From NCBI GenBank assembly GCA_021824575.1, contig JAKAKJ010000016.1, positions 1 to 64,000 on the forward strand: a DNA stretch of 64,000 nt. The letters run 5' to 3'. Below, in pieces: positions 43,426 through 62,337 of this stretch. The translations under genes were made by a program, and so were the position numbers. How positions within the stretch are numbered: position 1 is the stretch's first letter; every line of letters starts with the position of its first letter. The DNA comes from Chloroflexota bacterium. GTDB taxonomy: Bacteria > Chloroflexota > Anaerolineae > Anaerolineales > Villigracilaceae. The notes beneath the pieces are model-generated. The model was given only the letters and a program-made list of their open reading frames with translations, ran no database searches and was not told the DNA's origin.

Positions 43426-44910
43426 TTAATATGCGCCCTTCCGCTGCAATACAACTGCAACCGTACGGGCCAGGATATAAATGTCAAGCCATATTGACCA
43501 GTTGCGGACGTAGTATTCATCAAGGCTGACACGCTCTTCATATGTGGTGTCGTTGCGACCAGAAATTTGCCAAAGCCCGGTGAGACCCGGCCGCACCCAC
43601 GTATAGGGATCGAAACGGCTACCATAATGGCGAACTTCATCGGACACAATTGGGCGCGGTCCTATCAAGCTCATTTCGCCTTTCAAAACATTCCACAATT
43701 GCGGCAGCTCGTCAATACTGTATCGTCGCAGAATCCTGCCCAGCCATGTCACGCGCGGGTCGTTCTTTAATTTATGATTAGCTTCCCACTCCACCAATGC
43801 CTCAGGATTCTGCGCTAAAAACTCTTCGAGCTTCGCGTCGGCATTGGGAACCATCGTCCGAAATTTCCACGCACAAAATTCGCGGTTTCCTTTACCGATC
43901 CGCGTGTGGCCGAAGAAAGCACCGGCCTCTTTTGAATCCCATTTCAAGAGCAGCCAGAGCAATCCTAAAAACGGCGAAATCAAAAGTCCGCCGAAGAGAA
44001 CGAGGAGAATATCCATCGCCCGCTTGAGTGTCTGTTGTCCAGCGTCCAACAGGTTGTGGCGCACCTCAAGCCCAAGGACACCGCCAAAGTCGAACGCGTT
44101 CACGCCATAACTGCTAATCTGTTCCAGGTTTGGAATCAAAAGAAGGCGCTTAAACCCCCCCTGCCTGTTATCAGCCAAATAGTTTACAAAATCCGCCGGC
44201 ACGTCCGATGCAATAATCAAGGCTGTTTCCACACCGGTAAGTTCGGCAAGGTCTTTTCCCAACGTCACATTGCGCGATTCCAAGACCCGGATATTCTTAT
44301 AATCAACGGAGGCGTTTCCAGAAAAGTCCAATATCACACTCGGAATCAGGCCAAGCAAGCGGTTGCGAAGAAAAAATTCCAGCGCCCATTCGCTTTGTTT
44401 TCCGCAACCTATGACCGCCACGGTCTCCCCCCAGATATTCAACCGCGCGCCAATCGTCCGCATCAGATCCCTCCCCAACGGCAGGAGGAACAGGCTGAAT
44501 ATCCAGGTCAGGCCAAGAGTGAGACGGGAATAATCCTCGGCGTTTCTCACCCAAAAACTCAAAGCTGCAAACGCAAGGACCACAACACTCGTGCTTGTCA
44601 CAAGTTTTCTCAATTCTGCGACAGCACTCAATCCCAAGGCCGGATAAAGCCCAAACAAACTATAAAAGACCATGGACACGAGCATCACGGGAACCATCTG
44701 CGGATAGAGGTCAAATCGCCAGCCATCATGGAACGGCACGCGTACCAAAATTGCCAAAAAGGCGGCTATCGAAAAACTAATCGCATCTGCCAACACAAGC
44801 ATCAAGCCGCTTCTCACCCGCGGATTCAAGAAATTGACCTTGTGTCGGGAATGTTTTACTTCGTAACGATTCAGATACACGACTTTGACCGCACCCAAAT
44901 TTACGCTCAC
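43426..44910 (-). CDS. Undecaprenyl-phosphate sugar phosphotransferase (WbaP type)
   Basis: 494 residues from GTG 44910, with AGAGG before it; a TTG at 44928 is an alternative. It starts repeat-unit assembly by moving a sugar-1-phosphate to undecaprenyl phosphate. Four to five N-terminal membrane segments are followed by a Rossmann-like domain ([17 protein letters not shown] near 170) and the C-terminal catalytic domain: one membrane helix, [13 protein letters not shown] near 300, [20 protein letters not shown] near 340, [27 protein letters not shown] near 400 (catalytic Asp-Glu pair) and [15 protein letters not shown]. It lies downstream of the bcsB-like gene, with a long hairpin between. 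Confidence 0.93.
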
Positions 44911-44962
44911 GGAAACCTCTTTCGTCAATGAAACGCCAATGGCAGGAACATGAGATCATAAG

Positions 44963-45044: not shown

Positions 45045-47375
45045 CTACTGCTCCTTCTTGTTATTGCGATTCAACAAGCTGTCAATTGGATTCGTGACCT
45101 TTCCGGGATGGTTACGCAGCCAATTTACATAAACTGCAATAAATATGGTAGCCAGGATTAAAATAAAGGTAACGATCAAAGCAGGCAGAAGCCATCCTGG
45201 CCGATATACTGCCACGGGCGCACCAAGGTTCAAGGTGGGCGGAACAGCCTGCACTGCCGGAGTGCTGCCCGGAACCTGGGTGGAGGCAAGCGGAGCAATG
45301 GAAGCAATACGCGTATCTGCCGTTGTCACTTTCGTATTGTCTATGACTGCAAAATTGCCCTTCAAAGCAAAACTTAGTGGTGCGATCAGATGGGACGCTG
45401 CCCACGTTACACCCTGTTCTGTATTGCCCAGAGCTGCAATAATCACTTTATTGCTGTTCCATGGGGAAGTAAGCAATTCGACATATCCAACAGTCGTATT
45501 TGGCGCAATACGATATGTAACCTGCATCGGCGGCTCAGCTGCCACATCAGAATTACTGGCAAAAGGAGCGGGAAGCGAGCTATTGATCTCACTGATAATC
45601 GGCAATTGACTGGCGCGGCCTATCACCAGCAAGTTGTATTTCGCCCTCTCGGAAGCAGGCAGACCATCCGCGTAGAATACGGCGGGAGTTGTAATACTAC
45701 CCTGGGAAACGCTTCCAAGATAACTTGCCACATTGACGGCAGCGCGCCAGGCCTGTAAGTCATCTTTTGGAAGCACAAACGCGGTGCTGGCGAGGGTGCT
45801 ATCATACGAAAAAGGCGCCGGGTAATTCGTCAAATCGAAAGCCGCATTCGATCCGATCACGGTCGTTGTGAGGGGCAAATGCAATGTGCTTCCAGCCCAC
45901 AGATTCGCGTATGTCCCGCTCAAATTCGGTGAAGTGCATAGATCCTGTGGAATCATGCTCACACGCACTTCAATGTTATTCCGTCCGGCATGCACAAGCT
46001 CAGGTGAGATGGTAAATTTCGCGCTGTTGACAGCCGTGTTCGCAGTCTCGGCAGTGAAAGCCGCGCTGCCAATCGGCTGGCCGTTCAACAACACCACAAG
46101 CCCGGAGCGTGCGTAATTGAGCAGCGCAGAATGGCCGTACAGCAGTTGGAAGTAAGCATCCGCTCCCAGTATTTGCCCAGGCGGAATATAAAAACTGTAG
46201 GTAAAGTAATTTACACCCAAACTGTTGGCCGTCTCAGTTACATAGCCAAGGTCTTGCAGAGTCTGATCAACCGGGATTGAAGCTGGCAGAGGGTTTTGCT
46301 GTACTTGTTTGATCACAGCCAGATTCGGAAACGAATCAGTCCGAAAAGCGCCCGTAGTCATGGCTTGGGCGGCCTTGACCGTACCCAAATCCGTATTCCC
46401 TGATATGACCAATACGGCCTTATCTTTGCTCCACGGCGAGTCGACCAGCTCGACAATTCCATCATCCGGATTGCCTGCATTGTTCTTGATCTGTCCATTG
46501 GTTACAGGCATAGGCAGTTGTAATTGCTGAAGAACAGAAGCCAGCGAGGATGCCTTGCCAACCAGAATCAGATGACTACTCCCAACCTGTTGCGGTGTAA
46601 GCTGGCTGATCGTGACAATATCCAATGCCAATCCCGCACTGGTCAAACTACCAAGGCCGGCCGCGACGGTCATAGCACTCTGCAATTCAGCAACCGAGGG
46701 ATGATCCGGGATTACCAGCAACGCGGAGTCGGGGAAGGCGGAGTTTTGTTGGAATATTGGAGAAGGAAACAGAGTCAGGTCCGTATTAGGTGCGATGAGA
46801 TCGTGCGGCAGGGTCATTGTCGAGCTTGTATGAATCGCGACCACAATGTTCTCATCATAGGTACAGGCCCAGCCACTATCGAGGGTGAATCGAAGTTCCA
46901 TCAACCCATCGGTGCGCGCCGACTTCATAGCGTCCAGCGGGATCGGAAAGTGTTGTGTAACTTCGCCGACCTTCGTAAGGGAGATCACGCCCAAAAGCAC
47001 GTTGTTCATTTGGACCGTCAGAGACCCGGCGGCGCCCACTGTGTTGGGCGCATTGCTCGTAAGGGCCGTATTGAAAGAAACCGCCATGGCGAGGTCAAGC
47101 CGGGGACCCTGCGTGAGTTTCCAGCCAGCAGGCAGCGCAAATATAAGGGCGTTCGAGTCAAATGGCCCAGTCAACGTCATATCGGATTTAAGCAACTGTG
47201 CGAACGCAATCACGTTGCCTGTATCCGAAAGGACAGGAACAGGAGCCGGCATGGTTGTCGGAGTTGGAGTTGCGGCTGGCGTGGGACTCTGTGCCTTGGC
47301 TGTTACCGCCAAACTTGCCAGGAAGATCGCACAAAGCAAACCCACTAGCAAAAGCCTCGTAAAATATTTAGTCAT
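45045..47375 (-). CDS. Cellulose synthase regulatory subunit BcsB-like protein
   Basis: 776 residues. A signal peptide (about 1-28), a Pro/Thr spacer, two copies of the BcsB carbohydrate-binding plus flavodoxin-like unit (first about 50-350 with ALLVIPDHPSVAELQSAMTV; second about 380-690 with AFVLPKDDLQAWRAAVNVAS) and one C-terminal membrane anchor (about 729-752). In known systems BcsB guides the polymer made by BcsA across the cell surface. Here no BcsA-type synthase is found in the window; neighbours are Wzx/Wzy-pathway genes. Its role may be in export of a Wzy-type polymer or it may partner with a synthase elsewhere. Confidence 0.85.
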   Translation of the reverse strand: MTKYFTRLLLVGLLCAIFLASLAVTAKAQSPTPAATPTPTTMPAPVPVLSDTGNVIAFAQLLKSDMTLTGPFDSNALIFALPAGWKLTQGPRLDLAMAVSFNTALTSNAPNTVGAAGSLTVQMNNVLLGVISLTKVGEVTQHFPIPLDAMKSARTDGLMELRFTLDSGWACTYDENIVVAIHTSSTMTLPHDLIAPNTDLTLFPSPIFQQNSAFPDSALLVIPDHPSVAELQSAMTVAAGLGSLTSAGLALDIVTISQLTPQQVGSSHLILVGKASSLASVLQQLQLPMPVTNGQIKNNAGNPDDGIVELVDSPWSKDKAVLVISGNTDLGTVKAAQAMTTGAFRTDSFPNLAVIKQVQQNPLPASIPVDQTLQDLGYVTETANSLGVNYFTYSFYIPPGQILGADAYFQLLYGHSALLNYARSGLVVLLNGQPIGSAAFTAETANTAVNSAKFTISPELVHAGRNNIEVRVSMIPQDLCTSPNLSGTYANLWAGSTLHLPLTTTVIGSNAAFDLTNYPAPFSYDSTLASTAFVLPKDDLQAWRAAVNVASYLGSVSQGSITTPAVFYADGLPASERAKYNLLVIGRASQLPIISEINSSLPAPFASNSDVAAEPPMQVTYRIAPNTTVGYVELLTSPWNSNKVIIAALGNTEQGVTWAASHLIAPLSFALKGNFAVIDNTKVTTADTRIASIAPLASTQVPGSTPAVQAVPPTLNLGAPVAVYRPGWLLPALIVTFILILATIFIAVYVNWLRNHPGKVTNPIDSLLNRNNKKEQ

Positions 47376-47398: not shown

Positions 47399-48568
47399 TC
47401 AATTGAATAACCTCGCATGCTTCGCTGCATAGACTTCGTAATACAGCGCTTCGATACGGGCAACCATCTTCGAATAGGGAAACATCATCTCGACCCGCTG
47501 ACGGCCAGCGCGGCCGAAAGCATTCGCCAGCGCGGGATTCCTGATTATCTGCTCGACAGCATCAGCAAGTGCGTTGACATCACCAATCGGGACCAAGATG
47601 CCGGTTTCGCCATCACAAACCGCCTCAGGCGTTCCCATGACGCGCGTAGCCACAACCGGTAGGCTGGCCGCCATGGCCTCCAGCACTGCAAGCGGAAAAC
47701 CTTCCCAATGTGACGACAACACAAAACAATCGAATGATTTCAAGATTGCGGGAATATTGTCGTGGTATCCCGCAAAATGAAAGACGGATTCCAAACCGAG
47801 CGATTCAGCCAGTGCGCGTGACTCTGATTCAAGCGCGCCATCGCCAACCCACACAAAATGAGCGTCGGAGCAATTTGCATGGATTCGAGCCGCGGCGCGA
47901 ACAAAATCTTGTGGGGCTTTTGCTTCGGTGAGCCGCGCCACCGTCCCGATGAGCGAAACGTCAACTGGAATGCCCAACGCAGCACGGACACCAGCACGAT
48001 CCACCGGTTCGCGAAATGGTTCCAAATCAATGCCCGTATGGATCGTAACAAACTGTCCATCTGTTCCCACGGAATAACGCCGTGCCAGATCGCGCTCACC
48101 ATCGCAAATCGCTATGATTCTATCGGTAAGATAGCGAGCCGCCACACGTTCAAGCGCGGCATAAAACAATGCTTCCCGCCGCGGCGCGCCATCATGGAAT
48201 GCAAAATTTGCGGGCTGATAAATAACTGGCACCCCCGTGCCTGCTGCAGCCAAACGGGCGAAAAAACCGGGCTTTGAAGTGTGGGCATGAATTAAGTCAA
48301 AATCGTTCTCCTTAATGATTTTTGAAAGCTTCATACATACTTGCAAATCCGAAAACGGTTCAATACGATCTTTCATGGGAATACTGATCGCATCCACACC
48401 GTCTACTTGCGACATTTCAGCCGCCATCTGGTCAGAACCTTCTGCCAAACACGCCACTGTTATTTGAAATTTCTCTTTATCCAAAGCCTTTATCAAGCGG
48501 CGGGTATACATCCCGACGCCGCCTATTGATTTCGCTGCCTGAAAAACATGAAGGCGCTGGTTACTCAT
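47399..48568 (-). CDS. Family 4 glycosyltransferase
   Basis: 389 residues from ATG 48568, which overlaps the stop of the previous gene by eight bases and has GGAG nine bases upstream. GT-B fold with KSIGGVGMYTRRLIKAL at the start, IHAHTSKPGFFARLAAAGTG near 87, VSLIGTVARLTEAKAPQDFVRAA near 200, and FVLSSHWEGFPLAVLEAMAASLPVVATRVMG near 285 with the GT4 Glu. Part of a run of four coupled GT4 genes; the sugar is not known. Confidence 0.92.
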   Translation of the reverse strand: MSNQRLHVFQAAKSIGGVGMYTRRLIKALDKEKFQITVACLAEGSDQMAAEMSQVDGVDAISIPMKDRIEPFSDLQVCMKLSKIIKENDFDLIHAHTSKPGFFARLAAAGTGVPVIYQPANFAFHDGAPRREALFYAALERVAARYLTDRIIAICDGERDLARRYSVGTDGQFVTIHTGIDLEPFREPVDRAGVRAALGIPVDVSLIGTVARLTEAKAPQDFVRAAARIHANCSDAHFVWVGDGALESESRALAESLGLESVFHFAGYHDNIPAILKSFDCFVLSSHWEGFPLAVLEAMAASLPVVATRVMGTPEAVCDGETGILVPIGDVNALADAVEQIIRNPALANAFGRAGRQRVEMMFPYSKMVARIEALYYEVYAAKHARLFN

Positions 48569-49700
48569 GTTGAACGACTCCATGTTGTGATAATAGCGCA
48601 GAGTAAAGCCGGATGGTTTTCGAATACATTTCATCCAGGCTGTATTTTTCCTTCGCCCGCGCATACGCCGCCTGACCTATCTGACAACGGAGATCAGGAT
48701 CAACAACAAGGCGAAGACAAGCATCGGCAATTGCTTTCGGATCGGATGGCGGGACAAGCAAACCAGTTTCGCCGTCCACAACCAGGCCCGTTATTCCACC
48801 AACAGCAGTAGAAACAACCGGACGTGAAGCGGCCATGCCTTCGAGAAGCGCCATCGGCAACCCTTCATAGACCGAGGACAAAACCAAAATGTCCAAGGCA
48901 TTCATGACCGTTGGTATATCATTCCGTCTGCCACAGAAAACAACTTCGCGATCCAAGCCCAAATCAGCAGATAACTTTGTCAACGATTCGCGTAACGGGC
49001 CATCGCCAACAATTGCAAACCGGGCATTCGGCGCCACCTTTTTAATAAGCGCCGCTGCCCGCAGGAATGTCTCGTGATCCTTTGGCGGATCAAGGCGAGC
49101 CACAATTCCGATAAGCGGTGCATCTGAAGCAATGCCCAACTCCGCGCGCAGATTCAAGGCCGCTTCTTTTTTGTTCTCAAAACGCCGAACGTCAATCCCG
49201 TTCGCGATAGTCAATATCCTGGACGAGGCAAGATGAAAATGATGAATGGCATAATCACGAACTTCTTCTGCCACAGCGATGATTCGATCTGCAAACCGCG
49301 TCGTTACCCCATAGGTAAAACCAAAGAACGGGTTTTTGGCCCACTCGTTGCAACTATGCAACGTGGACAAAACCACAGGCACACCGCTCAATCGGGCGGC
49401 AAATCTGCCATGGAAATCACTCTTAAATAAATGAGTGTGAACAATTTGCGGCGGGTCTCTACGAATCACATTAGCCATCCGTACAGGCAGCATGGGATCG
49501 AATCGCGAGTGCCACGGGATGTGCGTTACATTTACACCCATCCTTGTCAGATCATCGGCTATCGGGCCAGGCTCGCAATAACAAACGCTAACGCGGAAAC
49601 CGTCGGACATAAGCTTGCGTGTCAGTCCCAATACCAACCCCTCTGCGCCGCCAACATCCAAACTATCAACCATTTGAAGAACGTGGATCGGCTTGTTCAT
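48561..49700 (-). CDS. Family 4 glycosyltransferase
   Basis: 379 residues. The start ATGA overlaps the stop of the gene before it. Features: MVDSLDVGGAEGLVLGLTRKL near 10, IVHTHLFKSDFHGRFAARLSG near 85, LIGIVARLDPPKDHETFLRAA near 194, and LVLSSVYEGLPMALLEGMAASRPVVSTAVGG near 281, the GT4 donor site. Together with its neighbours it should add one of the sugars of the repeat unit on the inner membrane face. Confidence 0.92.
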   Translation of the reverse strand: MNKPIHVLQMVDSLDVGGAEGLVLGLTRKLMSDGFRVSVCYCEPGPIADDLTRMGVNVTHIPWHSRFDPMLPVRMANVIRRDPPQIVHTHLFKSDFHGRFAARLSGVPVVLSTLHSCNEWAKNPFFGFTYGVTTRFADRIIAVAEEVRDYAIHHFHLASSRILTIANGIDVRRFENKKEAALNLRAELGIASDAPLIGIVARLDPPKDHETFLRAAALIKKVAPNARFAIVGDGPLRESLTKLSADLGLDREVVFCGRRNDIPTVMNALDILVLSSVYEGLPMALLEGMAASRPVVSTAVGGITGLVVDGETGLLVPPSDPKAIADACLRLVVDPDLRCQIGQAAYARAKEKYSLDEMYSKTIRLYSALLSQHGVVQHE

Positions 49701-50839
49701 GCGACACCGTCCGCGAGTGTTCGATATAAATCAAAATATCGCTTCCCCACCGCATCAAGATCATACTGTTCAATCGCTCGTTGACGCGCCTGCTTCCCAA
49801 GATATTCCATTTCCTTCGGATCGGCAATCAAATGCAAAATCGCATCGGCAAGCTGTCCAACATTATTCGGAGAAACCAATATTCCAGCGCCATCCGCAAG
49901 CGCATCAACCGAACCGCCAACATTCGTTGCAATGCAAGCAAGACCGGAAGACATTGCTTCCAATAAACTGTTGGAGATTCCCTCGCCCAGGGACGGCAGA
50001 ACAAAAATATCAGCAGCATCCAGATATAGTTTGACAGAATCGCGCCTTCCAGCAAAGGTCACATGTGGAGCAATATTCAAGTCCGCCGCCAATGCTTCCA
50101 GGGAGCGCTGTTCTTCTCCATCTCCGAGCAAAAACAAATGTACGTTGGCATAAACGTCAATCACTTGTTTTAGCGCCAGGAAAAGATCGGGCAATGCTTT
50201 TTGCGCTGTCAACCGGCCTGTGAATAAAAACACCGTCTTTCCCGCTTGATGGAGAACGGCTTTGGCGGCTCGCTTATCCGCAGACGGGCAAAACAAAGCG
50301 GTGTTCACGCCGTTGACTACGCGGACGATCCGGGCCGGGGGAAAGCCCGCTTCCAACAGCTCCGATTCAATCTCATCCGTCAGTGCAATATATGCGTCAG
50401 CCCATCTGCGAATAATCGTCAGCGCAAGACGGCCCCTCCATGTTCGATTCAGTTCATGAATATCCCCGAACGCGCCGCTATTTCCAAACTTGACAATAAC
50501 CTGCTTGCCAAGCATTTTTCCTGCGATACTGGCGGCAACAGCCGGCGCAAAAGCAAGGTGCGCATGCAGGATGTCAAAGGATTTGGAGCGCCGGATCATC
50601 GTAAAAAACGCGCCCAAAATAAACGAAAGCGATTTGATCTTTCCAGGGCCAAGTTCCGGTATGCGAAAGATTTGAAAACCGTTCTTCGTCTCAACGTATT
50701 TGCTGTCATCCAGTTTACGAGTGATGAACCCGGCATATATATTCTGCTGGGTTAAATAAGCAGCCAGGCGTTCCGCTTGACGCTCAGTGCCTCCGCCATA
50801 CGGAGGAAATAGATTGATGAGCATCATGACGCCCTTCAT
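49697..50839 (-). CDS. Family 4 glycosyltransferase
   Basis: 380 residues from ATG 50839 (a longer frame would run into the preceding gene). Features: NLFPPYGGGTERQAERLAAYL near 9, ILHAHLAFAPAVAASIAG near 88, FLFTGRLTAQKALPDLFLAL near 200, and FVLPSLGEGISNSLLEAMSSGLACIATNVGG near 280. Both ends overlap neighbours by four bases (ATGA), so translation is coupled through the chain. Confidence 0.92.
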   Translation of the reverse strand: MKGVMMLINLFPPYGGGTERQAERLAAYLTQQNIYAGFITRKLDDSKYVETKNGFQIFRIPELGPGKIKSLSFILGAFFTMIRRSKSFDILHAHLAFAPAVAASIAGKMLGKQVIVKFGNSGAFGDIHELNRTWRGRLALTIIRRWADAYIALTDEIESELLEAGFPPARIVRVVNGVNTALFCPSADKRAAKAVLHQAGKTVFLFTGRLTAQKALPDLFLALKQVIDVYANVHLFLLGDGEEQRSLEALAADLNIAPHVTFAGRRDSVKLYLDAADIFVLPSLGEGISNSLLEAMSSGLACIATNVGGSVDALADGAGILVSPNNVGQLADAILHLIADPKEMEYLGKQARQRAIEQYDLDAVGKRYFDLYRTLADGVA

Positions 50840-51981
50840 GCAAAGCCCACCCTTTCCAGCGTTGGTCGCGCAAGCTGTGCCTTGGAGTAAACTTCCAATA
50901 CTTTGTCGAACCAAGGATCAAGCGCATAATGCGACTCTGCGAAGGAGCGGGCGGCATCACCGGCCCCCTTGCGAATCGAAGAATCATTGAGCATGTTGCG
51001 CAGGCTGGTTATCAATGCGCTCACATCGCGCGGCGATATCAGGGAGCCTCTTCCATCAGCAAGTAAGAACGGCGCCTCCCCCACATTCGTGGCTATAATC
51101 GGCAACCCGGCGGCCATTGCCTCCAGCATGGACATGGACAACCCTTCCCAGTAAGAGTTATTAACAAAAATATCCGACGCGGCAAGCAGCCGAGGCACAT
51201 CCGTGCGTAATCCAAGGAATCGCATATCACCGGCAATCCCCAACGCAGACGCCTGCGATTCCAAATCGCCGCGCAGACTTCCATCTCCAACAATGAGCAG
51301 AAAGGCCTCCGAGTGATCCTTTCGCACTTCAGCGAATGCCGTCAACAGTTCAGCATATCCTTTTAGCAAAACCATCCGACCCACAGCAATAATGATTGTC
51401 CGATTCGGATCGCCCGCCAAATCAGCGCGGAGATTCCTCCGCTCGGAATCTGCAAGCACGAGTCCGGATTTGACAGCGTTCGGTACCACATTCAATTCCT
51501 TGGATCCGAGCCGGACGCGGTGCGCCTCAGCCACTCCATTGCCAACTGCGATAATCTGACATGCAATGTAACGAAGCGCAATTTGCTCAGCCATGGATCT
51601 CATCCGATAGTGCCCTCGCGTATCCAGGTGAGTACTATGCAAAGTCGCCACAACCGGAATACCAGCCAATCTTCCTGCGAATGTTCCAAGGACGTTCGCA
51701 TGTGACAAGTGCGTTTGAATCACGTCGAACCCACCAGAGCGGAAGACGCGAGTCAATATGGGCACTGCTGCAGGCTTGTAAAGTCGCGTAATGGATAAAG
51801 CTTCAACTTTCGCCCCGAACGATTCCAGTTGCGTTCTGTATGGGTTGTTCGCAATAAAAGCTTGCAGGCTGATTACCGTCACATCGAGCCCGCGAAGTCT
51901 GGCAACCTCTGCAAACGAGGCAATCCATTTCTCCGCGCCGCCCCAATGCAACGAATCGATCAGATGAGCAATCCGCATCAT
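50836..51981 (-). CDS. Family 4 glycosyltransferase
   Basis: 381 residues from ATG 51981, overlapping the flippase stop by ATGA. Features: HLIDSLHWGGAEKWIASFAEV near 6, VIQTHLSHANVLGTFAGRLAG near 80, IIAVGRMVLLKGYAELLTAF near 197, and FVNNSYWEGLSMSMLEAMAAGLPIIATNVGE near 274. It is the first of the four coupled GT4 genes after wzx. Confidence 0.92.
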   Translation of the reverse strand: MMRIAHLIDSLHWGGAEKWIASFAEVARLRGLDVTVISLQAFIANNPYRTQLESFGAKVEALSITRLYKPAAVPILTRVFRSGGFDVIQTHLSHANVLGTFAGRLAGIPVVATLHSTHLDTRGHYRMRSMAEQIALRYIACQIIAVGNGVAEAHRVRLGSKELNVVPNAVKSGLVLADSERRNLRADLAGDPNRTIIIAVGRMVLLKGYAELLTAFAEVRKDHSEAFLLIVGDGSLRGDLESQASALGIAGDMRFLGLRTDVPRLLAASDIFVNNSYWEGLSMSMLEAMAAGLPIIATNVGEAPFLLADGRGSLISPRDVSALITSLRNMLNDSSIRKGAGDAARSFAESHYALDPWFDKVLEVYSKAQLARPTLERVGFA

Positions 51982-53450
51982 GCCTCCCGCACCACCGCGG
52001 ACCGCACTGTATGAACCACATCCAAAACCACTCCGCGTTCCAGCACCCACAAAGCAGAACAATAAGCAAAGGCTCCAGAAACAACGCCGAACATCAATTG
52101 CTGCCATGCAGGAGCGGCAGCACTGAGATACAACACCAATTCAACGATTACCGTCATCAAAACAGCAGACAACACAGCTGGCCGCAGCGCATTAATGAGA
52201 TTGCCGATCGAAAGGTGCAATAAACGAGCTGCGACATAAAGTTCTAATATCGCCCCCAAGAAGGCTACTAATGCCTGCATCCAACCCACAGCAATGATTG
52301 AGCCGGCACCGGTGACAGCCCACCACAGCGCAGGAAATAGCAGCGTCAACCTAGCCAGGCTGAGCCACACTATCACTTGCGGGCGCCCCTCGGCCTTGTA
52401 AGCGTCGCCAGCGTTGTATACCAGAGACAAAAGCATTGCATAAATGGCAATTGCTCGGACTACTGGAATCGTACCTGCCCACTTGCTTGTGAAAAGACTT
52501 AACACCAAGGGGCCTGCAACGAGGGCCAGTCCGATTCCCAATGGGACTGTAACCAAGGAAACATAGCGCAACACCTGCGAGAAGGCGCGCGTCAAATTGC
52601 CGGGGACTTCGCGCATGTGAGTGAAAACAGGAAATACAACCTGCCCCAATACACGGGCAAACTGCAAAATCATCAGATCCGGCATACGAAAGGCCAGTGT
52701 GTACAAGCCTAACGCCACCGAACCGAGGTACCGCCCCACAAGCAAATAATCAAGATTCAGCAAAACTTCTGATATCAGATCAACCCAGACGATATTCATG
52801 CCGTAGGAAACAAGGGTACGGGCGACCTTCGTGTCGAAAGCGAAAGAAGGATGCCATGGCGTGATGATCCAGTAAACCACGGAGGAGACAAACGCGCCGC
52901 CGATCTGACCCCAGATCAGACTCCACGCGCCAAACCCGAACATTGCCAGCCCAATGGACACTGCGCCTTTAACCAGGGCCATTGTTATATCGGGGATAAG
53001 CATCCGCCCAAACGCCAGTTTTTTGTACAGAACAGAAGCCTGTATTCCACCCAGAGCATTAATTGGAAACGTAAAACTGAGCGCTCGGGTAACAGGGACA
53101 ACTCTTGGATCGCGGAAGTAAATACCCGCGTAGGGAGCCATTATCCACCCAACACATAAGAGGCCAACGCCAAACAATAGACTCAGCCAGAAAGCAGTTG
53201 TGGAGGTTCTCTCGTCTTCCGTATGGTAAATAAGCGCCGACCCCACGCCCAAATTATTCACAATATCCAGAAATGTAATGGCCGTAACGGCATAACCGAC
53301 CAATCCGAAATCATCAGGCGTCAACAAACGCGCTAATATAACAGTGCTGATAAAAACCAACAACTTGCCGGAAATGAATGCAAGGTATCTCCACGCTGTT
53401 CCGTGGACGGTCGTTCGGCCAAACGTGGAATGCGACTTTGAATCTTCCAT
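51978..53450 (-). CDS. wzx: Wzx-type oligosaccharide flippase
   Basis: 490 residues with about 12-14 membrane segments, of the MOP superfamily polysaccharide transporters. The N-terminus GTAWRYLAFISGKLLVFISTVILARLLTPDDFGLVGYA is typical of this group (read here as two pieces: GTAWRYLAFISGKLLVF and ARLLTPDDFGLVGYA). It turns the lipid-linked repeat unit to the outer membrane face for polymerisation by the Wzy protein encoded four bases upstream. Confidence 0.93.
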   Translation of the reverse strand: MEDSKSHSTFGRTTVHGTAWRYLAFISGKLLVFISTVILARLLTPDDFGLVGYAVTAITFLDIVNNLGVGSALIYHTEDERTSTTAFWLSLLFGVGLLCVGWIMAPYAGIYFRDPRVVPVTRALSFTFPINALGGIQASVLYKKLAFGRMLIPDITMALVKGAVSIGLAMFGFGAWSLIWGQIGGAFVSSVVYWIITPWHPSFAFDTKVARTLVSYGMNIVWVDLISEVLLNLDYLLVGRYLGSVALGLYTLAFRMPDLMILQFARVLGQVVFPVFTHMREVPGNLTRAFSQVLRYVSLVTVPLGIGLALVAGPLVLSLFTSKWAGTIPVVRAIAIYAMLLSLVYNAGDAYKAEGRPQVIVWLSLARLTLLFPALWWAVTGAGSIIAVGWMQALVAFLGAILELYVAARLLHLSIGNLINALRPAVLSAVLMTVIVELVLYLSAAAPAWQQLMFGVVSGAFAYCSALWVLERGVVLDVVHTVRSAVVREA

Positions 53451-53454
53451 GATT

Positions 53455-54867
53455 TTATGTACGCGGATTCAGGGAATAACCGTCCATCTCAGCTCCCGCG
53501 GCATTAGCAGGCTCAACAACATCCTCAAACTCAACAGCATGACTGTTTTTCGCAGCTTGAAGAACTCCCCAGGCGATCCCAACCAGGAGCCATAGATAAC
53601 GAATGTAAGCATCGTGGAGGAAGATGGCCGCGACCAGATAGCCGATCAAACCAACACTCATCGCTGCAGACAGATTCGCAAACTCGTTCATGTTCTGTTT
53701 CGCAAAGAGACCCTTCGCGAGTGCCAGTGCCCTAAAAGTAAAATAAATAATTGCCGCAAATGACAGAAAGCCTAATATGCCTCTCTCCGCGGCAACCTGA
53801 AGAAACAGGTTGTGAGCAGACTGGGTCTCGACGTTTTGGCCCAGCCCCAATTGGCGAGCATACTCCAAATAACGGGTATTAAAGTTGCCAACGCCCACAC
53901 CAAAGATTGGATTCTGGGTAAACATCGTCCATCCCACTGCATCCGTTGCAGCGCGGGCCTGAATCGAAGCATCCAGCGTGACAGAGTTGCTGGCGCCCGG
54001 TATCACTTGAAGTAGCGATCTGATGCGTTGGGTATATTGATCAGGAAGAACTTGATAAGCCAGAAGTCCAAAGGCCAATAACAGAAAAACTGGAATCAAC
54101 GGACGCCGCGGTTGCTGAATGATCGCGAGCAAAGCGACCACCCCAAGCGCAAGGAAGTCGCCGCGCGAATAAGTATAGAGAATGGTAACTATGCAAACAA
54201 ACAATGCCCAACCCGCCAGGATTCTTAAGAGAAGCCGCTTTTCATCCAGGAGTCTTTCAAAAGCCAACGGCACAAGGACTACCATGATTTGCCCATAAAA
54301 ATTGGGGTCATTCAAAACGCCTGCGACGCGATAATCACCAGCAGAGAGGCTGGCAACTTGCCCAAATCCGGCATACAGTCTACTAAACGTGCCAGTAAAA
54401 ACCTGAAAGATTGATATCGTCCCCATCAAAATCCCTGCAGCCAAAAGAGACCACACAGCCCACCGCAAGGATTTTGGATTTTGAATCAAGAAGATGGCCA
54501 CCAAGCCAATAATCACATCTTTCAAGTAAGAAAGCAGTGAGACGCTGGTTTGGGTTACGTTCGATGCGTAAAACAGGGAAAGCGAACCGAGCAATGTGTA
54601 TGTTCCCATTAGTAGGGCTGGCGCAACCCATCCTTGGAATTGATCTTGAAATACCAGCCACCTGGTTACGATCACCAAGACAAGCAGGCTGACCAAGGGT
54701 TGTGCGAGAGATGGCAAACCAAACTTCGATATAAGGATATCCGACAGATTGGTGTAAACGGCAAAGACCAAGATCACCAGCCCCAAGCCGGGTCTCAGTG
54801 TCAGCAAAATAAATGTAATGAGAGCGGGAACGCTCAGCAGGACTAACAGGGTGTAATCAATGTGCAT
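53455..54867 (-). CDS. wzy: O-antigen ligase/polymerase family protein (Wzy-like)
   Basis: 470 residues with about 11-12 membrane segments and the large outer loop of the Wzy_C domain (about 270-350), where IFGVGVGNFNTRYLEYARQLG and SAHNLFLQVAAERGILGFLSF are the typical signatures. It would join flipped repeat units into a polymer, or ligate the chain. Its place directly before wzx and after the Wzz-like gene favours the polymerase role. Confidence 0.9.
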   Translation of the reverse strand: MHIDYTLLVLLSVPALITFILLTLRPGLGLVILVFAVYTNLSDILISKFGLPSLAQPLVSLLVLVIVTRWLVFQDQFQGWVAPALLMGTYTLLGSLSLFYASNVTQTSVSLLSYLKDVIIGLVAIFLIQNPKSLRWAVWSLLAAGILMGTISIFQVFTGTFSRLYAGFGQVASLSAGDYRVAGVLNDPNFYGQIMVVLVPLAFERLLDEKRLLLRILAGWALFVCIVTILYTYSRGDFLALGVVALLAIIQQPRRPLIPVFLLLAFGLLAYQVLPDQYTQRIRSLLQVIPGASNSVTLDASIQARAATDAVGWTMFTQNPIFGVGVGNFNTRYLEYARQLGLGQNVETQSAHNLFLQVAAERGILGFLSFAAIIYFTFRALALAKGLFAKQNMNEFANLSAAMSVGLIGYLVAAIFLHDAYIRYLWLLVGIAWGVLQAAKNSHAVEFEDVVEPANAAGAEMDGYSLNPRT

Positions 54868-55059: not shown

Positions 55060-56199
55060 TTACCCGGCGTTTGCTTCCTGCTGTGGCCAAAACGGACTCT
55101 TTATTCCCCAAACATAGATTGGATTCGCATTGTCCCTTCTGGCGTTAGTCAAGGCATTCTCGGCCTTTGCAAACAATTCCGAAACAGAAATGTTGTTGCT
55201 GTATTCCGCACCGCCAATATGGGAATCAAGGTTTACCGTTATCCCCAAGGCGCCTAATTCAAGCGGCGTCGAAAGCGCCTGATGGATACGTTCAAAAATT
55301 CGGTTTGCTGCCGAGGCGGAAGTATTGGGCAGCATTAATTCAAAACTCAATTCATTCCGACGCCCAATCACATCATTACCACGTAGTTCATTCCGCAACA
55401 AATCTGTTACTTTTCGCAAGATCCATTGCTGACTTGCCGTCGGTAATGAATCGACCGTATCGCGAAGACCCGTTAGCTCCACGAACCCAATTGTGAATAC
55501 CTCATTCGGATTCTCGGCCAGAGATTCATCAACCGCACGAGGGAAATACCGACTACTGTAAACCCCAGTGATCGGATCCAAGCGATGCCTCTGCCGGAAC
55601 GCATCCAACGGGATACGAAGCTGCTCCCGCAAAACGGCCAACACCGCGCCTGCGATCAATCCAAAGACCAGCGCCACGCCAGCGTTGAGCAATGGCTGCG
55701 GGCTGATGGGAAGTGTAGGCGGAACGGCCCTATCCAAAAAGGTAATTACAAATACTTGGTTGATACGGTCAGAATAGCTGATAGTCTGATCGCCAATCGC
55801 ATTGGCCAGTGCCGCCACAACATTTGGGTCGGGGCCTGTAACGCTTAACTCCAAAATGGTTGTATTGGGAAGCACTGCCGCTTGATAGGTGTAATCCTTT
55901 ACTTGCTGAGGCTGGAGTTTAAGCATAGCCAGAGTGTCCGAATAAATCCTGTCACTATTCATGATCTGGGCGTAGGTGGAAATGACCGATACACTGCCTA
56001 TCGTATCGTAGCTGCGGACAACATCCGGGCCCGTGCTGAGAGAAATACTGCTTGGGATCAGAATGAAACTTGCTGTAGCCCGATATTGAGGGGTCACCAA
56101 AAACGAAAAAAACAACGATGCAGCTAACGCAAGCAAGGCAGTCAAAACAATAAGCCACCAGCCGCGCCTTAACATTTGAAAATACAAACGAATTTCCAT
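55060..56199 (-). CDS. Wzz-type chain-length protein fused to degenerate GGDEF domain
   Basis: 379 residues. The first 195 are a Wzz/chain-length determinant: a membrane segment (14-34), periplasmic-type part (VTPQYRATASFIL, LPNTTILELSVTGPDPNVVAALANAI) and second membrane segment (about 168-190) after Pro-rich SPQP. The rest (about 206-366) is a GGDEF fold starting LDPITGVYSSRYF. At the active site the GGDEF signature is replaced by NELSF (282-286), so it should not make c-di-GMP. The inhibitory-site motif RxxD is kept as RGND (273-276), exactly five residues upstream, as in true diguanylate cyclases. A receptor role for c-di-GMP controlling polymer length is my inference. No Wzc-type kinase domain is present. 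Confidence 0.88.
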   Translation of the reverse strand: MEIRLYFQMLRRGWWLIVLTALLALAASLFFSFLVTPQYRATASFILIPSSISLSTGPDVVRSYDTIGSVSVISTYAQIMNSDRIYSDTLAMLKLQPQQVKDYTYQAAVLPNTTILELSVTGPDPNVVAALANAIGDQTISYSDRINQVFVITFLDRAVPPTLPISPQPLLNAGVALVFGLIAGAVLAVLREQLRIPLDAFRQRHRLDPITGVYSSRYFPRAVDESLAENPNEVFTIGFVELTGLRDTVDSLPTASQQWILRKVTDLLRNELRGNDVIGRRNELSFELMLPNTSASAANRIFERIHQALSTPLELGALGITVNLDSHIGGAEYSNNISVSELFAKAENALTNARRDNANPIYVWGIKSPFWPQQEANAG

Positions 56200-61974: not shown

Positions 61975-62337
61975 ATGGATGAAAGACGGAAAACCCAGCG
62001 CCGGCATCTTCTCTATTATGGGCGCGTCTATGATGAGGAGCTTCGAAAACAGATCGGCTATCTCGTGGATATTACAGCACAAGGCCTGATGCTTCTCAGC
62101 GAAGAACCGGTCCGCGTCGGAGAAACGCGCAAACTAAAACTCGAGATCACCAATGACGTGGATGACCGCCCCTACCTGACTTTCGCGGCGAAAAGCATCT
62201 GGTGCGAACCGGACATTTCACCCGATCACTACACGACCGGTTTCGAGATTTTAGAGCTAAAGCCTTCGGACGCACAAATTATCAACAATATTGTCCGGAT
62301 CTACGGTTTCCGAGACAACAAAAATCGGGCGGAATAA
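61975..62337 (+). CDS. PilZ-domain c-di-GMP-binding protein
   Basis: 120 residues, a stand-alone PilZ domain. The c-di-GMP contacts are visible: the Arg-rich start DERRKTQRRH (RxxxR, residues 2-11) and VDITAQGLML near 31-40 (the D/NxSxxG motif with Thr for Ser). It should act as a receptor for c-di-GMP, perhaps on polysaccharide synthesis. No ribosome-binding site is seen before ATG, and GATAAT lies only a few bases upstream, so it may be translated from a leaderless message. Confidence 0.87.
   Translation: MDERRKTQRRHLLYYGRVYDEELRKQIGYLVDITAQGLMLLSEEPVRVGETRKLKLEITNDVDDRPYLTFAAKSIWCEPDISPDHYTTGFEILELKPSDAQIINNIVRIYGFRDNKNRAE

Follow-up and report, generated by a model that had tools for sequence, protein, structure and literature searches.

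A short Wzz co-polymerase of the PCP-2 type carrying a catalytically dead GGDEF domain is encoded at 55060..56199 on the minus strand of the window (the whole 64,000-nucleotide stretch of DNA analysed herein), and the sequence makes it probable that this domain serves as a PelD-like receptor, which would bind c-di-GMP through the primary I-site residues R273, D276 and R304. This suggests that c-di-GMP may act directly on polysaccharide assembly via the co-polymerase. Our analysis established the domain order of the protein, the absence of all catalytic residues tested, the retention of the I-site, the gene's place in a Wzx/Wzy locus that lacks a BY-kinase and the linkage to a BcsB-like gene.

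The gene runs from an ATG at 56199, preceded by a strong purine-rich RBS-like stretch, to a stop at 55060 (ORF list), and its product has 379 aa. A promoter scan returned chance level only, and an Rfam scan of 40000-64000 gave no match above gathering scores. Residues 6-89 (55933..56184, minus strand) form a Wzz domain (PF02706, E=1.4e-11) that scores 45.0 bits, over the curated Pfam cut-off of 25.5, and comprises the first transmembrane segment (TM1, about 14-34) and the beginning of a short extracytoplasmic domain. A GNVR-like stretch with TM2 lies at residues about 152-193 (55621..55746, minus strand), where the Pfam match itself (PF13807, residues 152-192, E=8e-4) is weak and under its cut-off. 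Hydropathy peaks at 12-20 and 168-176, indicating two transmembrane segments, and the AlphaFold model has helices at 14-34 and 168-193 that flank the extracytoplasmic domain, which is the arrangement of Wzz/PCP-2 proteins. The C-terminal part, residues 207-359 (55123..55581, minus strand), is a degenerate GGDEF domain (PF00990, E=1.4e-12); neither a GAF nor a kinase domain was matched by Pfam in this protein. The model, built from four sequences, reaches a pLDDT of about 80-90 in the GGDEF region and is less certain in the extracytoplasmic part. Comparison with known cyclase structures, proposed as a check in the original prediction, matched the modelled GGDEF region to c-di-GMP-bound PleD, PA0861, DgcB and others (Z 22-23, about 23 for PleD and PA0861); hence, Pfam domains and modelled fold agree on the Wzz-GGDEF fusion read from the sequence at the outset.

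At the position of the GGDEF active site the protein reads NELSF (N282-F286; 55342..55356, minus strand), and none of 47 fusions carries GG[DE]EF. Other catalytic positions are altered as well (D241E, N249V, D258Q), so that the protein lacks the combination of GG[DE]EF with metal- and substrate-binding residues that marks an active diguanylate cyclase; we ruled out cyclase activity, the catalytic residues being missing in all fusion members. The RGND motif, R273 to D276 (55372..55383, minus strand), is retained, with its arginine and aspartate at -9 and -6 relative to NELSF, i.e., in the register of the published I-site, whose RxxD lies 9 and 6 residues ahead of GGEEF (PMC2170427). Moreover, the family profile aligns RGND to DgcR, both to its RKSD I-site (6zxm) and to the AKSA mutant of that site (6zxb/6zxc), which bears out the exact spacing claimed for the motif. 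A third I-site residue, R304 (55288..55290, minus strand), equivalent to PelD R402 and PleD R390, had gone unremarked in the original prediction. It follows R273 by 31 residues, the spacing that also separates R359 from R390 in PleD. The degenerate GGDEF fold with RxxD at -9/-6 and a third arginine is the sequence pattern of PelD-type receptors, in which R367, D370 and R402 of PelD, as well as the B. cereus equivalents R363, D366 and R395, are each required for c-di-GMP binding (PMC7112168, PMC8461298). The residues of the inhibitory site named in the original prediction are present; inhibitory is nevertheless the wrong word for this protein, which has no enzyme activity left to suppress.

We searched for the fusion in 61 related genomes and took more distant members from 396 genomes of the class and 400 of the phylum; the survey covered Chloroflexota genomes plus one tblastn of plasmids, and one scan of genome contigs relied on single-protein peptide patterns, whose reach is close relatives only. 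The fusion was present in 20 of the 61 genomes. These 20 close members share twelve invariant residues in the GGDEF domain, including R273, D276 and R304 (and the glycine of RGND); the chance that three pre-chosen columns would all fall within the invariant twelve is about 4e-4 if columns are treated as exchangeable, an assumption that does not hold in full. In the main clade of 37 orthologous fusions (support 99/98 in the Wzz-part tree; median GGDEF-domain identity 34%) the intact signature is found in 0/37, R273 and D276 together in 32/37, R304 in 35/37 and all three residues in 30/37. Catalytic loss with I-site retention, first noticed in a single sequence, is thus a property of the family. 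Across 153 columns of the 37 orthologues the I-site residues rank 13th, 4th and 11th by entropy, and the seven metal, substrate and GGDEF active-site columns rank 65-138; since the sequences are related, these ranks, like the Fisher figures given below, overstate independence. Several residues outside the I-site (P253, G274, L309, T293) are likewise invariant or nearly so.

Fusions without RxxD, which had been named as evidence against a receptor, and which do tell against it in part, occur in 5 of the 37, in two lineages, the R273P clade (L087-L090) and L091, and all five remain in Wzx/Wzy loci; the other 32 keep the motif. The GGDEF regions of the R273P subclade are natural I-site variants and may be useful as controls. 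A count in which 42 of 42 dead fusions carried RxxD was discarded, as the underlying search disfavours RxxD-less sequences and had missed the R273P clade. In ten more distant fusions RxxD is kept, R304 is absent and the intact signature is found in 0/10. Additionally, the Wzz-only proteins L093, L095, L096 and L101 nest inside the main clade of the Wzz-part tree, and therefore the GGDEF domain has also been lost in places.

How much of this conservation is inherited can be judged from 33 intact GGDEF domains of the same genomes, which we compared with 33 fusions. Active-site residues are present in 32-33 of the 33 intact cyclases versus 0 or 1 of the 33 fusions. RxxD was found in 32 of the 33 intact cyclases, so that the motif is ancestral in the lineage and its presence alone carries little weight; we rejected the argument that RxxD by itself proves a receptor, and what is telling is its retention after catalysis was lost. 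The R304 position is occupied by arginine in 31/33 fusions versus 21/33 intact cyclases (p=0.005, a value which kinship makes generous). Intact cyclases conserve D276 and R280 on other grounds; this, together with the near-universal RxxD, implies that some of the conservation is inherited, possibly for structural reasons. The genome containing the window encodes c-di-GMP enzymes, with 19 GGDEF hits, several with intact GG[DE]EF, and 8 HD_5 hits, and no EAL match was returned by a search of this genome whose PF07238 counterpart missed the PilZ gene of the window.

The fusion opens a run of genes on one strand, in the order PCP-Wzy-Wzx-four glycosyltransferases-BcsB-like-WbaP-glycosyltransferase, with overlaps or gaps of less than 200 bp, as expected from the claim that it heads a complete Wzx/Wzy operon. 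On the minus strand follow a Wzy-type polymerase/ligase (53455..54867; PF04932, E=8e-21), a Wzx flippase (51978..53450; PF13440, E=1.5e-74), four glycosyltransferase genes in overlapping order that are mutually related by phmmer (47399..52107) and, beyond the BcsB-like gene, a WbaP-type initiating phosphoglycosyl transferase (PGT) of 500 aa (43426..44928; PF02397, E=4e-61, and PF13727); pel operon genes are absent among these neighbours. In 41 neighbourhoods, some of which are Wzz-only and some at contig ends, a Wzy relative was found in 33 and a Wzx relative in 29. A BY-kinase was found by phmmer in 0/41, and two known kinases of this genome, L004 and L016, were recovered by the same query as positive controls. 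Hence, the fusion lacks the C-terminal or adjacent BY-kinase of PCP-2a/2b systems, and its GGDEF domain occupies the position where PCP-2a proteins have that kinase, in keeping with the contrast to kinase-bearing regulators drawn in the original prediction. Since Wzc-type proteins exist elsewhere in the genome (L004, L008, L016), the swap is local to this locus and not genome-wide. A PilZ gene does lie about 6 kb away, as had been pointed out (61975-62337, plus strand; PF07238, E=1e-7), on the strand opposite to the fusion and behind unrelated genes; as a partner it was rejected, PilZ having been found near the fusion in 0/40 other neighbourhoods. This gene was unlisted by the own-genome PF07238 search though it scores over the Pfam cut-off, and short genes can be missed by that search.

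A BcsB-like gene, unmentioned in the original prediction, accompanies the fusion far more regularly. In the window it encodes a membrane-anchored extracytoplasmic protein of 776 aa (45045..47375, minus strand; PF03170, E=4e-44), and a PF03170 gene lies directly downstream in 18 of the 41 loci and within reach in 28. Nineteen of the 20 genomes with the fusion have a BcsB-like gene versus 3 of the 41 without it (both 19, fusion only 1, BcsB only 3, neither 38; 61 genomes; Fisher p=1e-11, uncorrected for kinship), and the single fusion-only genome, G016, carries the fusion on a contig of 3 kb. The window protein shares PF03170 with BcsB but is without an adjacent BcsA, and a cellulose synthase over the CelA cut-off was found in 0/61 genomes. 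In the genomes with BcsB alone, the BcsB gene of G024 adjoins a membrane GGDEF protein with a dead GGEKY and an RSTD I-site, a glycosyltransferase with MshEN domains lies nearby in G038, and in G047 the contig with the BcsB gene also encodes a cellulose-synthase-like protein; MshEN domains are known binders of c-di-GMP. Because of these three genomes we note that BcsB-like genes here tend to accompany possible c-di-GMP receptors. The BcsB-like protein is a likely extracytoplasmic partner of the fusion. The GGEKY/RSTD protein (L162:6663-7529) has no Wzz domain, and the MshEN-domain glycosyltransferase (L161:5187-7412) is NfrB-like.

Another membrane protein with a dead GGDEF, about 295 aa long and likewise unmentioned in the original prediction, is encoded in 16 of the 41 loci, the window not among them, near the PGT gene and mostly just upstream of it; some members score under the Pfam cut-off. 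Of these 16 proteins, 13 have all three equivalents of R273, D276 and R304 and the other 3 have none of them, and being kept or lost as a set is the pattern expected of one binding site. Examples are L145:7427-8311, L122:7133-7993 and L149:14946-15827, with 13 others. In L137:6033-7730 this dead-GGDEF membrane protein and a Bac_transf initiating transferase are naturally fused into one protein of 565 aa, whose own RxxD is lost.

Parts of this scheme have known counterparts. PelD is likewise a membrane-anchored degenerate GGDEF protein with RxxD and a third arginine, a c-di-GMP receptor controlling polysaccharide production (PMC2170427, PMC7112168, PMC8461298); unlike the fusion, it has four TM helices and a GAF domain and belongs to a synthase-type system, whereas the fusion has a Wzz domain and lies in a Wzx/Wzy locus. 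Wzc and the CpsC-CpsD and CapA-CapB pairs have in common with the fusion the Wzx/Wzy context, the Wzz domain, a pair of TM helices and, following TM2, a regulatory C-terminal domain in the cytoplasm, but those systems use a BY-kinase where it has a dead GGDEF and no neighbouring kinase. Alg44 of the alginate system resembles the role proposed for the fusion, being a co-polymerase subunit that directly binds c-di-GMP to drive polymer export (PMC8461298), but does so with a PilZ domain, in a synthase-dependent system and without a Wzz domain. BcsE (PMC8461298) and YdaK are degenerate GGDEF-type receptors with an I-site in polysaccharide pathways, and neither is a chain-length regulator. Dead GGDEF receptors in polysaccharide control and a c-di-GMP-binding co-polymerase are already known. 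The original prediction knew of no description of the scheme, and in the open-access full texts that were searched we too found none, neither for a GGDEF domain fused to Wzz within a Wzx/Wzy locus nor for the association of such a fusion with BcsB-like proteins.

Chain length in PCP-2 systems is set by a phosphorylation cycle, which opens and closes the octamer (PMC12220298). We postulate that in the fusion c-di-GMP would take the part played by tyrosine phosphorylation in Wzc/CpsCD: the ligand, probably as an intercalated dimer, would dock at the I-site as in PelD and would link or lock neighbouring GGDEF domains under the membrane, which may change how the Wzz oligomer is assembled and how it works together with Wzy. 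The direction is the least certain element; by likeness to other c-di-GMP-activated exopolysaccharide systems, high c-di-GMP would turn export on or lengthen the chains. More broadly, these loci may represent a widespread Chloroflexota Wzx/Wzy type that reads c-di-GMP in place of a tyrosine-kinase cycle. The reading would be done by dead GGDEF domains, that of the co-polymerase and, in some of the loci, one next to or joined with the initiating transferase, and a BcsB-like protein would be a constant partner on the extracytoplasmic side, apart from any cellulose synthesis; for this proposition we see the balance as even.

The receptor reading has to be weighed against the R304-less distant fusions, the four Wzz-only members of the clade and the five fusions without RxxD; it gains from independent dead-GGDEF proteins of the same pathway that retain the site (the PGT-linked family and the RSTD protein of G024). 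Degenerate GGDEF domains can act through protein contacts alone, and the domain could instead be an assembly or docking module, serving the Wzz ring or recruiting Wzy, PGT or a diguanylate cyclase, with LRGND kept for folding or as an interface. The conserved P253, G274, L309 and T293 and the survival of four R273P fusions as genes would suit such a module. However, the three residues familiar from PelD, which lie apart in the sequence, all belong to the best-conserved positions, and the PGT-linked family keeps or loses them as a set, and we therefore regard a docking module as rather unlikely.

Less probable still, by a good distance, is a different nucleotide ligand (GTP, ppGpp or some other cyclic dinucleotide), bound either in the degenerate active site or at the I-site. 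Some degenerate GGDEF domains do bind GTP. PleD has been crystallised with c-di-GMP plus ppGpp or pppGpp (9g85, 9g86). Against this, the active-site columns vary freely, which makes a conserved ligand there unlikely; the argument covers the active site, and at the I-site the ligand may, as far as sequence goes, be a different dinucleotide. Finally, the nested Wzz-only members and the one subclade without R273 could be read as stages in the decay of a functionless relic, but a domain that persists at this divergence with twelve invariant residues in the 20 close members and no intact active site, and that retains three dispersed I-site residues, makes decay scarcely credible.

If, as the receptor reading would have it, the co-polymerase itself reads c-di-GMP, one could ask whether chain length can be set by a PCP ring whose assembly is driven by a ligand and not by the phosphorylation cycle. 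The family offers natural comparisons in the R273P I-site variants and the members without the domain. The nearest named case, hrd7_33270 of Leptolinea sp. HRD-7, was retrieved by the tblastn of plasmids and is annotated as hypothetical; on its sequenced 212 kb plasmid (AP024711.1; L167:12001-17756) the Wzz-GGDEF gene is followed by two consecutive BcsB-like genes, all of them annotated as hypothetical.
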